Of a DNA stretch of 18,022 bases, positions 1 through 18,022 are shown in pieces; position 1 is the stretch's first letter, and the number at the start of each line of letters is the position of its first letter. The translations under genes and the position numbers were made by a program. This DNA comes from Caldifarciminota bacterium. Its GTDB lineage: Bacteria; Hydrothermota; E44-bin80. The stretch covers positions 1 through 18,022 of the forward strand of contig JAGMEZ010000538.1 of assembly GCA_023127905.1 (NCBI GenBank), in the 5' to 3' direction. The notes beneath the pieces are model-generated. The model did no database searches and was not told where the DNA came from. It worked only from the letters and a program-made list of their open reading frames with translations.

Positions 1-28
1 AGTACTCCAAAATAAATAAGGAGATTTG

Positions 29-1366
29 ATGAGATTATCAACAAGAAGTCGTTATAGTATTAGAGCTCTATTGGATATCCTTGCCAATGGAGGTGTGAGA
101 AAGCCAGTTTCTTTAAGAAAAGTTGCAGAAAGGCAGAACGTTAGCGAGAAATATCTTGAACAACTTTTTATCTTACTAAAGAAGGCGGGGATTGTAAAAG
201 CAGAACGAGGAGTAAAAGGAGGATACACTCTTGGAAAGGAACCAGAAAAGATATACGTTGGTGATATTTTACGGTTGACTGAGTTGGATGTGACGCCAGT
301 ACCCTGTATTGGTTGTAACAGGATTGAAAGATGTATATGCAAGGTTTATTGGGATGATCTTGGTGAGATAATTATGGGTTTTGTTGACTCAGTTTCTCTT
401 GAAGATATAAATCAGAGATCGATTACAATGGGAGAGAAAAGAAGAACAGGTAGGGATTTTTCTACAGTTGAACTAAAAAATGAGATTAATCGGTTAAAGA
501 GTGAGAGAGATGCAGTTTTACTTGTACATAACTATCAGCGACCGGAGATTCAGGAAATAGCTGATTACCTTGGTGATTCACTTGACTTAAGCAGGATTGC
601 ATCGAGACTTCCACAAAAGATAATTGTTTTCTGTGGTGTAAAGTTTATGGCAGAGAGTGCAAAGGTCCTTTCACCTGAGAAAACAGTGTTGATTCCCCGA
701 TTTGATGCAGGTTGCCCCATGGCTGATATGATTACAACCGATGAATTACGGGAGATGAAAAAGGAATACCCGAATGCAAAAGTTGTTTGTTATGTAAACA
801 CATCTGCTGAAGTAAAGGCAAATTGTGATATATGTTGTACGTCTGCAAATGCTGTGAATGTCGTAGAGAGTCTCAAAGCAAAGAAAATCTTATTTATCCC
901 CGATAAAAATCTTGCTGATTATGTTGATAGACAGACAAAAAAGGAAGTAATTCCCTTTCATGGGTACTGTTATGTTCATGAATTCATAGAAAAATGGGAT
1001 ATTGAAGAACAGAAAAGACTACATCCAGACGCCCGTGTGATGGTACACCCTGAAACAAAACCGCAGGTTGTTAAAATTGCCGACTATGTTCTCGGAACGA
1101 ATGGAATGGTAAATCTTGCAAAAAAGAGCAAAATAAAGGAATTTATTGTTGGAACTGAGGAGGGGCTTGTTGCAAGACTTAAAAGGGAAAACCCCCAAAA
1201 GAAGTTTTATTTACCATCCCGAAAACCGATATGCTCGAATATGAAGAGGACCCATCTCGAGGATGTATATTACAGCCTGAGGGATATGAAATACAGGATA
1301 GAGATTGATCAGAAGATTATTAAGAAGGCACAGAAAGCACTTAAGAAGATGATAGCAATTAAGTGA
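29..1366 (+). CDS. nadA: Rrf2-type Fe-S regulator fused to quinolinate synthase (NadA)
   Basis: A single 445-aa frame with two parts. Residues 1-130 look like an Rrf2/IscR winged-helix regulator: the LSTRSRYSIRAL opening, the SEKYLEQLF recognition helix, the RGVKGGYTL wing, then four cysteines (C93, C96, C102, C104) where IscR and NsrR bind their cluster. Residues from about 145 are a complete NadA, which condenses iminoaspartate with dihydroxyacetone phosphate to make quinolinate for NAD synthesis. The three [4Fe-4S] ligands of NadA are visible as C229 (AGCPMAD), C314 (GYC) and C402 (CSNMK), with family-like spacing. Stand-alone NadA is about 300 aa, so the N-terminal domain is an addition. 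Start: ATG at 29 with AAGGAG at 18-23; a TTG directly before it is less likely. An internal ATG at 428 (residue 134) could start a NadA-only product. No nadB or nadC is visible. The NadA call is firm; DNA binding by the N-terminal part is inferred. Confidence 0.93.
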   Translation: MRLSTRSRYSIRALLDILANGGVRKPVSLRKVAERQNVSEKYLEQLFILLKKAGIVKAERGVKGGYTLGKEPEKIYVGDILRLTELDVTPVPCIGCNRIERCICKVYWDDLGEIIMGFVDSVSLEDINQRSITMGEKRRTGRDFSTVELKNEINRLKSERDAVLLVHNYQRPEIQEIADYLGDSLDLSRIASRLPQKIIVFCGVKFMAESAKVLSPEKTVLIPRFDAGCPMADMITTDELREMKKEYPNAKVVCYVNTSAEVKANCDICCTSANAVNVVESLKAKKILFIPDKNLADYVDRQTKKEVIPFHGYCYVHEFIEKWDIEEQKRLHPDARVMVHPETKPQVVKIADYVLGTNGMVNLAKKSKIKEFIVGTEEGLVARLKRENPQKKFYLPSRKPICSNMKRTHLEDVYYSLRDMKYRIEIDQKIIKKAQKALKKMIAIK

Positions 1367-1581: not shown

Positions 1582-3645
1582 TTGAAGGAATTTGGTGTGA
1601 ATGATATTAGAAATGTTATGCTCTGCGGACACGGCGGGGTTGGTAAGACTACGCTTGCAGAAGCAATGCTTTTTGATAGCGGAGAAAGGAGTAGATTGGG
1701 AAGGGTTGATGAGGGGAACAGTACAATGGATTACGACCAACTTGAGATTGATAGAAAAATAACAGTTTCTCTTGCTATTGGACAATTCCCATGGAAAAAT
1801 AGTTTTATAAATCTTCTCGACACTCCTGGGTATGCTGATTTTCGGGGAGAGGTAATCTCAGCTACTGCAGTAAGCGATGGGGCAGTTATAGTTGTGGATG
1901 CGACTTCAGGAGTTGAAATGGGAACTGAGTGGGTCTGTGAACTTACAAAGAAACACTCAATGCCTTCATTAGTTTATATAAATGTATTGAAGAAAGAAAA
2001 CTCAGATTTTTTCAAGGTCCTTGAAGAAATAAGTAAGATGTTTAAATCTGGTACTGTCCCACTCACAATTCCCATAGGAGAGGGTGAAAAGTTCAGCGGA
2101 GTAATTAATCTTCTTTCGAAAAAGGCATATGTGTATAGAGATGGGAAAGCTGAGGAAATAGAGATTCCAGATACAGAAAAGGGTAAGGTGGAAGAGATGA
2201 GTAAAAATCTCGTGGAGGGGCTTGTTGAAACCGATGATGATTTAATGGAACGGTATCTTGCAGATGAAGATATAAAAGAGGAAGAACTCGCTGCGATTCT
2301 CAAGAAAGGTGTCATCAAAGGAGAGGTTCATCCTGTTTTTTGTGGTGATGCTTACCATAACATAGGGGTGGATCTTTTACTTAATGGTATTACTCAATTA
2401 CTTCCATCTCCTGAGGAGAGGGGGGATGTGATAGTAACTGAAGAGGAAAAAGAGAAGATATTAAAAATTAATGATCCATTTTGTGCCCTTGTCTTTAAAA
2501 CCATTTTTGAACCACATTTAGGTGAGTTGAATTATACGAGAATATTTTCTGGAGAACTGGTACCAGGAACGGATGTTATCAATATAACGAAAGGTTCAAC
2601 AGAGAGAATTAATCAGATTTATCTGCTTAATGGCAAAGAGAGAAAAGAGGTAAAGAAAGTGTTACCTGGTTCGATATGTGCGCTGGTTAAGTTAAAATCG
2701 ACAAAAACAGGCGATACACTCACGTCAAAAGGTCAAAAAATGAAGCTTTCGGGTATTACTTTTCCTGAACCTTCAATATCGATTGCAATTGTTCCTAAAT
2801 CAAAAGCTGATGAAGAAAAGGTTTCGTTCGGTCTTGGTAAACTGCGCGATGAAGATCCATGCTTTTCATCTCACTATGATTCAGAACTTAAACAAACCCT
2901 TATTTCAGGTTTTGGTGAACTTCATCTTGAGGTAATTGTTGATAAACTGAAAAGGAAGTTTGGTGTTGAAGTTAGTTTTGAAAAACCAAAGATTCCCTTT
3001 AGGGAGACTATTACAGCAAAGTCAGAAGTTCAAGGGAAATACAAAAAGCAATCAGGGGGGAGAGGACAGTACGGCGATGTGAGGATTCGTTTTGAACCCC
3101 TGAGCAGTGGAAGAGGATTTGAATTTGTGAATGGGGTTGTAGGTGGTTCAATTCCTTCAAAGTATATTCCTTCAGTTGAAAAAGGATTGAATGAGGCGAT
3201 AAGAACAGGGGTGCTTGCTGGCTATCCTGTCGTTGATTTTAGGGCAACACTTTACGATGGAACATTCCATTCGGTTGATTCTTCAGATATTGCTTTTAAG
3301 GTTGCTGCATCCATGGCATTTAAGAAAGGAATGGAGGATTCAAAACCAATTCTTCTTGAGCCTATAATGAATGTTGAGGTAGTTGTTCCGGAAGATATGA
3401 TGGGTGATGTGATTGGTGATTTAAATTCAAGAAGGGGTAAAATTCAGGGGATGGATTCCTCAGGAAGGTTGCAGAAGATTAAGGCTTCAGTTCCACAAGC
3501 AGAAATGTACAAGTATTCCACACAACTACGGTCAATTACCCAGGGCAGGGGTACATTCACTCAGAGTTTCTCTCATTATGAAGAGATGCCTAAGGAAATA
3601 TCGGATAAGATTGTACAGGAACACAACGAGAGTAAGGAAGATTAA
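1582..3645 (+). CDS. EF-G-like translational GTPase (EF-G2/FusA2 type)
   Basis: 687 aa, the length of elongation factor G, with its domain order: GTPase domain (about 1-270), beta-barrel domain II (about 300-385), then domains III-V, including GGRGQYGDV of domain IV and the QLRSITQGRGTFTQ stretch of domain V. The P-loop is GHGGVGKT (16-23). Several nucleotide-binding motifs differ from canonical EF-G: the RGIT of switch I reads RKIT, the G3 motif reads DTPGY (80-84) with Tyr in place of the catalytic His, and the G4 motif NKxD reads NVLK (134-137). The residues around G4 (VYIN, then KENSDF) still align with EF-G, so this is substitution rather than misframing. The protein resembles the EF-G2 paralogue group, whose role is poorly defined, and is unlikely to be the housekeeping translocase. 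TTG start. The stop overlaps the stop of the convergent lipoprotein gene by 4 nt. Confidence 0.88.
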   Translation: MKEFGVNDIRNVMLCGHGGVGKTTLAEAMLFDSGERSRLGRVDEGNSTMDYDQLEIDRKITVSLAIGQFPWKNSFINLLDTPGYADFRGEVISATAVSDGAVIVVDATSGVEMGTEWVCELTKKHSMPSLVYINVLKKENSDFFKVLEEISKMFKSGTVPLTIPIGEGEKFSGVINLLSKKAYVYRDGKAEEIEIPDTEKGKVEEMSKNLVEGLVETDDDLMERYLADEDIKEEELAAILKKGVIKGEVHPVFCGDAYHNIGVDLLLNGITQLLPSPEERGDVIVTEEEKEKILKINDPFCALVFKTIFEPHLGELNYTRIFSGELVPGTDVINITKGSTERINQIYLLNGKERKEVKKVLPGSICALVKLKSTKTGDTLTSKGQKMKLSGITFPEPSISIAIVPKSKADEEKVSFGLGKLRDEDPCFSSHYDSELKQTLISGFGELHLEVIVDKLKRKFGVEVSFEKPKIPFRETITAKSEVQGKYKKQSGGRGQYGDVRIRFEPLSSGRGFEFVNGVVGGSIPSKYIPSVEKGLNEAIRTGVLAGYPVVDFRATLYDGTFHSVDSSDIAFKVAASMAFKKGMEDSKPILLEPIMNVEVVVPEDMMGDVIGDLNSRRGKIQGMDSSGRLQKIKASVPQAEMYKYSTQLRSITQGRGTFTQSFSHYEEMPKEISDKIVQEHNESKED

Positions 3646-14770: not shown

Positions 14771-16171
14771 ATGAACAACGGGAATAGAGAAAAACTGAGA
14801 AAAATACCTTCGATTGATAAGTTACTCTCTAAAAGTGAGATAAAACCTTATCTTAAAAGGTTTCCAAGAAAATTTGTGAAGGCATGTTGTAAAACATTGT
14901 TAGAGGAAATAAGGGAAGATATCCTTAAAAAAAGAAAGAGGGAGTTTTCTCTTAAAAGTTTTATTGAAGCTTTAGAAGTAACTTTTTCATATAAGAGTCA
15001 TAATATAATAAATGTAGTAAATGCAACAGGTGTTATACTTAATACGAATCTTGGAAGGGCACCGCTTCCAGAAAGACTTGTTGATAGTATAAAACCAATT
15101 CTTACCGGGTATTCGAATCTTGAGTATAACCTCCAAAAGGGGAAGAGGGGAAAGAGACGCGACCATCTTATCGGTCTGTTAAAGGATTTAACGGGTGCAG
15201 AAGATGCATTTGTTGTCAATAATAATGCGGGTGCTGTACTGCTGTGTCTTGATACATTTGCAAAAGGTAAAGAGGTGATTGTGTCGCGAGGGCAGCTCGT
15301 AGAGATAGGAGGTTCATTCAGGCTCCCTGAAATACTGAAGACAAGTGGTGCTAAGCTTGTAGAGGTTGGTACAACAAATAGAACATATATTGATGATTTC
15401 AGGAAAGCCATAACGCCTGATACAAGAATGTTGTTACTGAGTCATAGAAGCAATTTCAGAATAGTTGGCTTTACCAAGGACCCTTCAGTTGAGGAGATAG
15501 TTCTTCTTGGGAAGGAAAAGGGTATTATTACAATGATGGATCTGGGGAGTGGACTTCTTATTTCCATGGAAAAGGCTGGATTGCGACATGAACCGACAGT
15601 AAAGGAAATTGTAGATAAAAAGATTGATATTGTATCCTTCAGTGGAGATAAATTGCTTGGTGGACCCCAGGCAGGTATCATTCTTGGCAAAAAGGAATTT
15701 GTTACAGTTTTTAAAAATAGTCCCCTTTCTCGTGCCTTGAGAATAGATAAATTTACCATATCCGCTCTTGAGGTAATTCTCCGCATCTATCTCTATTCAG
15801 ATGACCCTGTTATGGAATTACCTGGTCTTAGAATGGCTTTCATAAAGAATGTTGTCATAAAGAAAAGGGCTCAAACGTTGAAAAATGAAATAATTGCAGT
15901 TACAAAGAAAAAAGCGATTGTGGAAATAGAAAAAGGATTTTCGGAAATGGGGGGTGGTTCGATGCCAGCTGAGGTGATGCCTACGTATCTTGTTACTATT
16001 AAAGTGAAAGGAATTAAGGAGGAAAAGCTCCTGAAACTCCTTAGGGAAAATAATCCGCCTGTTATTGCTCGAATAGAAAAAGATAGAGTCGTAATGGACC
16101 CAAGAACAATATTTCCCAATGAAATAAAGGACATAAAAGAGGCAATGAGAGAGATTTGTGGGAAATACTGA
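14771..16171 (+). CDS. selA: L-seryl-tRNA(Sec) selenium transferase
   Basis: 466 aa, family length. A PLP enzyme that turns Ser-tRNA(Sec) into Sec-tRNA(Sec) with selenophosphate, for insertion at UGA codons. The N-terminal helical tRNA-binding part (about 1-65) opens with LRKIPSIDKLL; then NVVNATGVILNTNLGRAPLP, NNNAGAVLLCL, SRGQLVEIGGSFRLPEI, and the PLP lysine K294 in SFSGDKLLGGPQAG. The last blocks, ELPGLRMA and MGGGSMPAEVMPTY, also fit. The ATG has no Shine-Dalgarno site. It is followed 35 nt later by selB, the usual partner. No selC or selD is in this window. Confidence 0.96.
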   Translation: MNNGNREKLRKIPSIDKLLSKSEIKPYLKRFPRKFVKACCKTLLEEIREDILKKRKREFSLKSFIEALEVTFSYKSHNIINVVNATGVILNTNLGRAPLPERLVDSIKPILTGYSNLEYNLQKGKRGKRRDHLIGLLKDLTGAEDAFVVNNNAGAVLLCLDTFAKGKEVIVSRGQLVEIGGSFRLPEILKTSGAKLVEVGTTNRTYIDDFRKAITPDTRMLLLSHRSNFRIVGFTKDPSVEEIVLLGKEKGIITMMDLGSGLLISMEKAGLRHEPTVKEIVDKKIDIVSFSGDKLLGGPQAGIILGKKEFVTVFKNSPLSRALRIDKFTISALEVILRIYLYSDDPVMELPGLRMAFIKNVVIKKRAQTLKNEIIAVTKKKAIVEIEKGFSEMGGGSMPAEVMPTYLVTIKVKGIKEEKLLKLLRENNPPVIARIEKDRVVMDPRTIFPNEIKDIKEAMREICGKY

Positions 16172-16206
16172 ATTAACGATCACATAATTATTTTCTAAAC
16201 ACTACC

Positions 16207-18022
16207 ATGGGGAAAATTATTGGAACTGCCGGTCATGTTGATCATGGTAAGACGGAACTGATCAAGGCTTTGACTGGTATAGATACAGACCGTCTTTCGG
16301 AAGAAAAGAAGAGAGGTCTTACTATAGATCTTGGTTTTGCTTATATAGACCTTAAGAGAGCAGGACGGGTAGGGATAATTGATGTACCAGGTCATGAAAA
16401 GTTCTTAAAGAATATGCTTGCTGGTGTGGGTGGAATGGATGTTGTTATCCTTGTTGTTGCTGCAAATGAGAGTGTAATGCCGCAAACAAAGGAGCATTTC
16501 CATATTTTAAGATTACTCGGAATAAAAGATATAATTATAGGGATAAGTAAGATTGATATTGTTGACGAAGAGATGCGGTTTATTGTAAAAGAAGAGGTAG
16601 AGGACCTTATAAAAAATACTCCCTATGAAACTGCCCCGATCGTTGAATTTTCATCAGTAACAGGGGAGGGGTTGTCTCAAATTAGAGAAGTGCTTGATGA
16701 AAGAATTAGTAAAATCGAAGAAAGGAGTACAGAAGGTCAGTTTACAAGGCTTGCGGTAGATAGATGTTTCGAAATGAAAGGAATCGGGACTGTTATAACC
16801 GGTACATTACTCTCTGGTATGATAGAGGAGGGGGAGGAAGTTGTAATTCTTCCACCCGGGCATAGAACGAAGGCTCGGCAGATGCAGGAGCATAATATAA
16901 AAAAAGCTAATGTCTCTGCTGGAGAACGTGTGGCAATAAATCTTCCAGGTATTGATAAAAGAATGGTTAGTCGAGGGAATGTTATTACTAAAGAAGGACA
17001 GCTCAGTCCAACTAATAGATTACTTGTTTTCATTGAACCGGTAGAAGAGATCGGGGATATTAAGGATATGGAAAGGGTGAAAATATATCTTGGAAGTGGT
17101 GAGTACCTTGGTCGGCTCGAACTTATTGGGAAACGGAAGATTTCTGGAAGTGATAAATTCATTTCATATCTTGCCCTTGAGAAAAAGATGGTTGGTGTAA
17201 GAAATGACAGATTTATTGTGAGAAGATATTCACCTATGAAACTCATTGGTGGAGGTGTAATTCTGGATGCATTCCCGGAGATCAAAAAGAGGTTTTCAAA
17301 GGAAATCCTAAAAGAGGTTGAGCAACTGATTGGTGCATCTAAAGGAGATACTTTGCTTTACTTTTTACACCGAAGTCATCTTTCTCTTCAAAAAGCACAG
17401 AAAAAGATGCAGTTACCTTCTAATGATTTCAAAAAGGTTTGTGATGAACTGCTTAGTGAGGGAAAGATTGTGGTTTTAGGAGATGAACTCTTCACTTCGC
17501 ATGGGTTTGATATGATAAAGAAGGATATTATAGAAAAAGTAGAAGGATTCCACAAGAAAAATCCTTTAAAGAAAGGAATAGATAAAGAAGGTTTGAGAAC
17601 TACCCTGCGGTTGGAGAGGAGCACATTTGATTTTCTGCTCTCTTCAGTGAATGAAGTGAATGTTGAAAAGAATTTTATAAAGATTTCGGGTTTTACCCCG
17701 CAGTTTGACCGGGAAACAAGCGAGAGAAGAAAACGTATACTTTCATCATTAAAACAAAACCTATTCAAGCCGGAAAGAATAGAAGAGGACGACCTTATCA
17801 GAAATCTTGTAGATGAGGGTAAGATTGTGAAAATCAAGGGAAATATGTATTTTCATAAGGATGCTGTTGAAAAAGGGAAAAAACTCATAAGGGACGCTAT
17901 AAAGAAGAGTGGTTTATTAAGTGCAGGGGAGCTAAAGGATATATTGAAGACGACGAGAAAATACGCCATACCTTTTCTCGAATACCTTGATAAAATCAAA
18001 TTTACTGTGAGAAAAGGCGACC
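16207..18022 (+). CDS. selB: selenocysteine-specific elongation factor SelB (3' end beyond the window)
   Basis: 605 codons are seen and the frame is open to the edge. It carries Sec-tRNA(Sec) to the ribosome at UGA codons marked by a SECIS RNA hairpin. G motifs: GHVDHGKT (9-16), RGLTIDLGFAY (36-46, the SelB switch I signature), DVPGH (59-63) and SKID (114-117). The domain II/III beta barrels follow (about 175-340), then the C-terminal winged helices that bind SECIS (about 375-605). The in-window end, KIKFTVRKGD, matches the usual last winged helix, so only a few residues are probably missing. No Shine-Dalgarno is visible before the ATG. It lies 35 nt after selA and probably shares its transcript. 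Confidence 0.95.
   Translation, partial: MGKIIGTAGHVDHGKTELIKALTGIDTDRLSEEKKRGLTIDLGFAYIDLKRAGRVGIIDVPGHEKFLKNMLAGVGGMDVVILVVAANESVMPQTKEHFHILRLLGIKDIIIGISKIDIVDEEMRFIVKEEVEDLIKNTPYETAPIVEFSSVTGEGLSQIREVLDERISKIEERSTEGQFTRLAVDRCFEMKGIGTVITGTLLSGMIEEGEEVVILPPGHRTKARQMQEHNIKKANVSAGERVAINLPGIDKRMVSRGNVITKEGQLSPTNRLLVFIEPVEEIGDIKDMERVKIYLGSGEYLGRLELIGKRKISGSDKFISYLALEKKMVGVRNDRFIVRRYSPMKLIGGGVILDAFPEIKKRFSKEILKEVEQLIGASKGDTLLYFLHRSHLSLQKAQKKMQLPSNDFKKVCDELLSEGKIVVLGDELFTSHGFDMIKKDIIEKVEGFHKKNPLKKGIDKEGLRTTLRLERSTFDFLLSSVNEVNVEKNFIKISGFTPQFDRETSERRKRILSSLKQNLFKPERIEEDDLIRNLVDEGKIVKIKGNMYFHKDAVEKGKKLIRDAIKKSGLLSAGELKDILKTTRKYAIPFLEYLDKIKFTVRKGD

Follow-up and report, generated by a model that had tools for sequence, protein, structure and literature searches.

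Regulators of the Rrf2 superfamily and quinolinate synthase (NadA), an Fe–S enzyme whose product is a precursor of NAD, are represented among solved structures by separate proteins: the Rrf2 chains that match the locus described here have 129–184 residues and no NadA part, and the matching NadA chains stand alone, with 300–323 residues. The trigger enzymes PutA and NadR combine a transcription factor with a metabolic enzyme in a single chain, where the state of substrate or cofactor acts. Within the phylum studied here, operons of the rrf2-nadA or rrf2-iscS-nadA-iscU type encode an Rrf2 protein and NadA together, but as separate genes.

The window, by which we mean the whole stretch of 18,022 nucleotides that was analysed, carries a gene in which these two proteins are joined, as they are in one group of uncultured bacteria. 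Its Rrf2 half resembles IscR, NsrR, RirA and CymR in having a full PF02082 domain, the recognition-helix residues, the wing motif RGxxGGY, three cysteines and Trp108, and differs from the solved chains in being fused to NadA. Like PutA and NadR, the protein holds a regulator and an enzyme in one chain; their regulation has been shown experimentally, whereas that of the fusion is predicted. The joining of a transcription factor to an enzyme is thus of a known kind, and the Rrf2-NadA combination is apparently a new variant, which is not to say that novelty is proven: no description of it was met in titles and the beginnings of abstracts in the open-access literature, a scope that leaves most subscription papers outside.

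Architecture and conservation of the fusion gene

The preliminary description had reported a complete Rrf2 domain and a complete NadA in a single open frame, and this stands: the frame runs for 445 codons, and both Pfam domains lie far above their cut-offs. It starts at the ATG at position 29, the ORF listing also permitting a TTG at 26. The window begins at the first base of its contig (C488:1), and 28 bases precede the ATG. The features of the gene are as follows.

18..23, + strand: ribosome-binding-like AAGGAG, 5 bases ahead of the ATG (from the sequence)
29..1366, + strand: rrf2-nadA fusion gene, open frame of 445 amino acids and stop
35..409, + strand: Rrf2 domain, winged helix and cluster region, residues 3–127 (Pfam, PDB relatives)
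305..334, + strand: conserved Rrf2 cysteines C93, C96 and C102, probable Fe–S ligands (alignment)
338..340, + strand: C104, non-conserved Rrf2 cysteine (alignment)
410..481, + strand: variable linker, residues 128–151
482..1354, + strand: NadA domain, residues 152–442 (Pfam, NCBIfam, solved-structure alignment)
713..715, + strand: C229, first NadA [4Fe-4S] ligand (aligned to solved NadA; 17/17)
968..970, + strand: C314, second NadA ligand (aligned to solved NadA; 17/17)
1232..1234, + strand: C402, third NadA ligand (aligned to solved NadA; 17/17)

The N-terminal half matches the Pfam Rrf2 family over residues 3–127 with 103.3 bits (cut-off 30) and the NCBIfam superfamily model TIGR00738 with 107.6 bits (cut-off 73.3), and its solved relatives are 4cic, IscR (4hf1) and CymR (2y75). 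Its membership of the superfamily is therefore established but not an identity as IscR proper, since its score with the NCBIfam IscR equivalog model is 105 bits, where 207.55 would be required; with the model for CymR it likewise falls below the cut-off, at 91.2 bits against 195. Ser40, Glu43 and Gln44 of IscR contact DNA, according to the published account (PMC5411485). At the positions of Glu43 and Gln44, all 17 aligned fusion proteins have E44 and Q45, and at that of Ser40 all have K41; R60 is likewise present in 17/17. The Rrf2 half is predicted to be a DNA-binding, dimeric regulator.

All seven cysteines named in the preliminary description (93, 96, 102, 104, 229, 314 and 402) are at the positions given, but its set of four Rrf2 cysteines is reduced to three: C93, C96 and C102 are each invariant (17/17), whereas C104 is present in 15/17. 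The spacing is C-x2-C-x5-C, with a longer first gap in one of the 17, and may be compared with C92...C98 in IscR and C93...C99 in NsrR. In f3, the sister family, two of these cysteines are present and one is absent. No fourth cluster ligand is evident in the Rrf2 half: the position of NsrR Asp8, matched by residue number rather than by alignment, holds Arg in 17/17, and the cluster ligand His107 of IscR falls near residue 105 of the fusion proteins, a Lys, Arg or Thr. The Rrf2 half probably binds an Fe–S cluster.

The C-terminal half matches Pfam NadA over residues 152–442 with 406 bits (cut-off 27) and exceeds the equivalog cut-offs of two NCBIfam NadA models (418.3 versus 294 and 354.9 versus 262.9), two further NadA models giving scores below theirs (165 versus 691 and 71.9 versus 561). 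Its cluster ligands and active site align to those of solved NadA enzymes. The three cysteines C229, C314 and C402, presumably the [4Fe-4S] ligands as the preliminary description had proposed, are present in all 17 aligned fusion proteins, as are Y169, Y255, N257, H317, H340 and E342; H167 is found in 16/17, and we take these seven to be active-site residues. The NadA half is thus predicted to be an active [4Fe-4S] quinolinate synthase.

Conservation along the chain is uneven. Among the 17 fusion proteins, the winged helix (residues 1–70) is the best conserved part, with a mean majority share of 0.834 and 32/70 invariant positions, followed by NadA (residues 148–445; 0.811, 114/298) and residues 71–127 (0.681, 10/57), while linker residues 128–147 reach 0.335 with 0/20 invariant. 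A Met occurs in 12/17 linkers, in no common column as judged by eye; a conserved internal NadA start in the linker is not supported, individual cases being possible. For three genome pairs, the NG86 values of dN/dS are 0.115/1.416, 0.101/1.43 and 0.097/0.862 for NadA and 0.148/1.369 and 0.068/0.911 for Rrf2, the third Rrf2 pair being saturated (dN 0.168). dN is therefore well below dS in the five computable of the six half-by-pair comparisons from these three genomes; YN00 gave no values for two of the Rrf2 pairs.

Distribution and origin

In a search of 5.8 billion proteins with the full protein, from which 8000 candidates were scored and the best 120 listed, the fusions are the first 17 matches: full-length two-domain clusters comprising the window's own and 16 others that are 63–79% identical over the whole length. 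With the Rrf2 part alone as query, 19 of 422 candidates passed the threshold, namely the same 17, a two-domain partial protein of 315 residues and an Rrf2-UbiA protein; a search from a divergent fusion member listed 18 of 125 candidates, made up once more of the 17 and the partial one. A protein comes within reach of these searches only if it has exact words in common with the query, so that distant fusions may have escaped them. An organism is named for two of the 17 clusters: one is labelled Cloacimonadota, the other Cloacimonas, a genus belonging to Candidatus Cloacimonadota. A second odd Rrf2 architecture is seen in P0122 (754 residues), where an Rrf2 domain is joined to a UbiA-type prenyltransferase domain.

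Within the phylum, 147 genomes were searched, of which 133 have NadA and 130 an unfused NadA. The carriers of the fusion are G000, G013 and G014, all of family f1, and among the matches listed it is the only NadA and the only Rrf2 detected in them. The fourth f1 genome (77% complete) gave no NadA match, and its Rrf2 is of another branch. When 200 loci, 137 of them with a NadA match, were scanned with an Rrf2 profile derived from the fusions themselves, both domains fell in one frame only in the copies of the three carriers. Elsewhere in the phylum, the seven long NadA frames that were examined (368–439 residues; five in f27, one in f5 and one in f17) showed no Rrf2 match; there are further ones of 344–418 residues. 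The stand-alone Rrf2 of G015 was considered as an unfused orthologue and ruled out, as it belongs to a different branch of the Rrf2 tree.

The database count of the two-domain architecture is thus at least 17 full-length clusters, and two further genera have the frame uninterrupted, each on its own contig. The possibilities raised beforehand, of a stop or frameshift near 420–450 or of homologues that always occur as two separate genes, do not hold. The position of the window at a contig end might speak for an assembly or sequencing artefact that joined two genes, but the clusters come from several sources and the frame is intact in the two other genera; such independent copies in effect refute an artefact, which we regard as extremely improbable.

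The NadA tree has 136 rows (139 minus three fusion duplicates, with matches below 250 bits and exact copies dropped beforehand), and in it the 17 fusions fall together (SH-aLRT 99), next to the four rows of f3, where rrf2 and nadA overlap or adjoin (87, a value not starred and obtained by a quick method). In the Rrf2 tree of 51 rows, from which ten duplicate or truncated loci were omitted and pieces shorter than 100 residues dropped, the 17 fused rows again form one group (100/100), inside a clade with adjacent genes of f3 and f6 (97/96); the bootstrap of this tree is unsettled and f3 sits on a long branch. The trees conflict on f6, whose Rrf2 groups with f3 and whose NadA does not. The fusion arose once, as the single fused group in both trees indicates. 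Both halves branch near genes of bacteria whose rrf2 and nadA overlap, and on the simplest history the most likely origin is a co-transcribed rrf2-nadA pair with overlapping ends.

Unfused relatives and predicted function

Where NadA is unfused, rrf2 often lies close by: in at least 17 of these 130 genomes, a listed rrf2 shares contig and strand with nadA at a distance of no more than about 5 kb. Chance would give fewer than one such genome by our own rough estimate. The rrf2 gene is directly upstream of nadA in five genomes (G006, G007, G008, G009 and G012), the two overlap by 4 bases in the loci L143 and L145, and one genome (G093) has the reversed order, nadA then rrf2. A cysteine-desulfurase-like gene lies between rrf2 and nadA in 11 of the 17 genomes, a call based on a Pfam class-V aminotransferase match in five of the 11, on 86% identity to the gene of L154 in a sixth (L153) and on inspection by eye in the rest. 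Three of these genes were compared with NCBIfam: those of L148 and L158 pass the NifS cut-off, and that of L151 has NifS as its best match, below the cut-off. NifU-type scaffold genes occur in several of these operons (two tested by Pfam), and elsewhere in the phylum nadA can belong to an rrf2-iscS-iscU operon. Of 80 named loci, which are the best 80 of 584 matches and a non-random sample, 7 have an Rrf2 frame no more than 5 kb from NadA, as seen with the fusion-derived Rrf2 profile, which may miss divergent members. Outside the phylum, in the deltaproteobacterial loci L032, L033 and L074, rrf2 directly precedes nadA, with a stop codon between them. The Fe–S link suggested in the preliminary description is supported, and more strongly than it appeared from the sequence alone, because rrf2, often with the desulfurase-like gene, lies close to nadA in the 17 relatives; the self-regulation and the cluster-dependent coupling that it raised have the standing of predictions.

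Both halves look functional, so that enzyme and gene switch may be one molecule. We consider it rather probable, and favour the view, that the fusion is a bifunctional protein made of an Fe–S-responsive Rrf2 regulator and an active NadA. The Rrf2 half would read Fe–S status and adjust transcription of its own gene, of other Fe–S or NAD genes, or of both, while the NadA half would make quinolinate; enzyme supply would thereby follow cluster supply. Computation shows the architecture, the single fused group in both trees, the invariance of the functional residues and the rrf2-nadA operons of relatives; binding of a cluster and of DNA, the targets and any signalling between the halves are predictions. 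Proteins whose genes become fused usually act together, and the fusion would accordingly represent a direct evolutionary link from Fe–S sensing to NAD synthesis; together with the surrounding operons it predicts that an uncharacterised group of Rrf2 proteins matches the control of quinolinate synthase to the supply of clusters.

The bifunctional view is compatible with a passive fusion, in which the two modules act independently of each other and the loss of a stop codon brought fixed stoichiometry or co-expression, without coupling. We give this about an even chance: the overlap of rrf2 and nadA in close relatives and the variable linker fit it, but the single chain has been kept across 63–79% identity, with no split version inside the clade among the best matches listed. 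That retention in 17 full-length clusters, the Fe–S chemistry common to both halves and the failure to find a second, separate NadA in the three carrier genomes would suit a stronger form of the favoured view, a trigger enzyme in which DNA binding by the Rrf2 half responds to changes in the cluster of NadA or in its active-site ligand. The varying sequence of the linker argues against a fixed interface between the halves, and we judge such coupling less likely than not. Somewhat more doubtful is its furthest consequence, that the only Rrf2 regulator detected in these bacteria is an enzyme of NAD synthesis, and that NadA, through its cluster or its substrate, directly sets the transcription of Fe–S and NAD genes.

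The Rrf2 half might, on the contrary, have ceased to regulate and serve NadA as a dimerisation or cluster-handling module. It would be in keeping with this that tests of little power revealed no operator in the two promoters of the fusion, and that inspection by eye of its surroundings in G013 and G014 brought up no gene for NAD or Fe–S metabolism. But the winged helix is the most conserved segment of the whole protein, which a mere dimeriser would not need, and we judge this reading improbable.

Promoters and genome context

The fusion promoters of G013 and G014 contain no palindrome beyond those of shuffled sequences (0.91 and 0.955 of 200 shuffles were as good), and the same test on 16 unfused promoters gave one beyond shuffles, in L150. 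An operator-like motif of the unfused kin had no match in the two fusion promoters, in a test without power, since all four of its leave-one-clade-out controls failed; nor was an operator found in common among the fusion, nadB, nadC and iscS promoters, by motif searches of which that same test was one. The palindrome of L150, of the form ATTCCTACTAAATAAGTAGGAAT, lies just before rrf2 and is a candidate Rrf2 operator; weaker sites like it occur in other f16 genomes, and of the upstream palindromes of L150–L154 only that of L150 goes beyond shuffles.

Over the cut-off, nadB was found in three of the four f1 genomes and nadC in three of the four, both on contigs other than that of the fusion; neither was found in G000 (89% complete). 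A conserved hairpin of the CCTGT...ACAGG type precedes nadB by about 16 bases in three genera of f1 (L136, L137 and L138), with no Rfam match at the gathering score. Matches to NifU_N and to class-V aminotransferases occur in each of the four f1 genomes and matches to SufB/D in none; inspection by eye showed no Rrf2 gene next to their iscS-nifU genes. A third NifU_N match in G000 (C437:615-977) has two in-frame stop codons and is perhaps a pseudogene.

In the window, in which no tRNA genes were found, the fusion is followed by an elongation factor G gene (1582–3645); a gene that looks by eye like one for elongation factor G (L149, 2198–4195) is the divergently oriented neighbour of the rrf2-iscS-nadA operon in G026, possibly by chance. 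At the far end (14771–18021) stand selA and then selB, the latter cut by the contig end, and the organism therefore probably makes selenoproteins.
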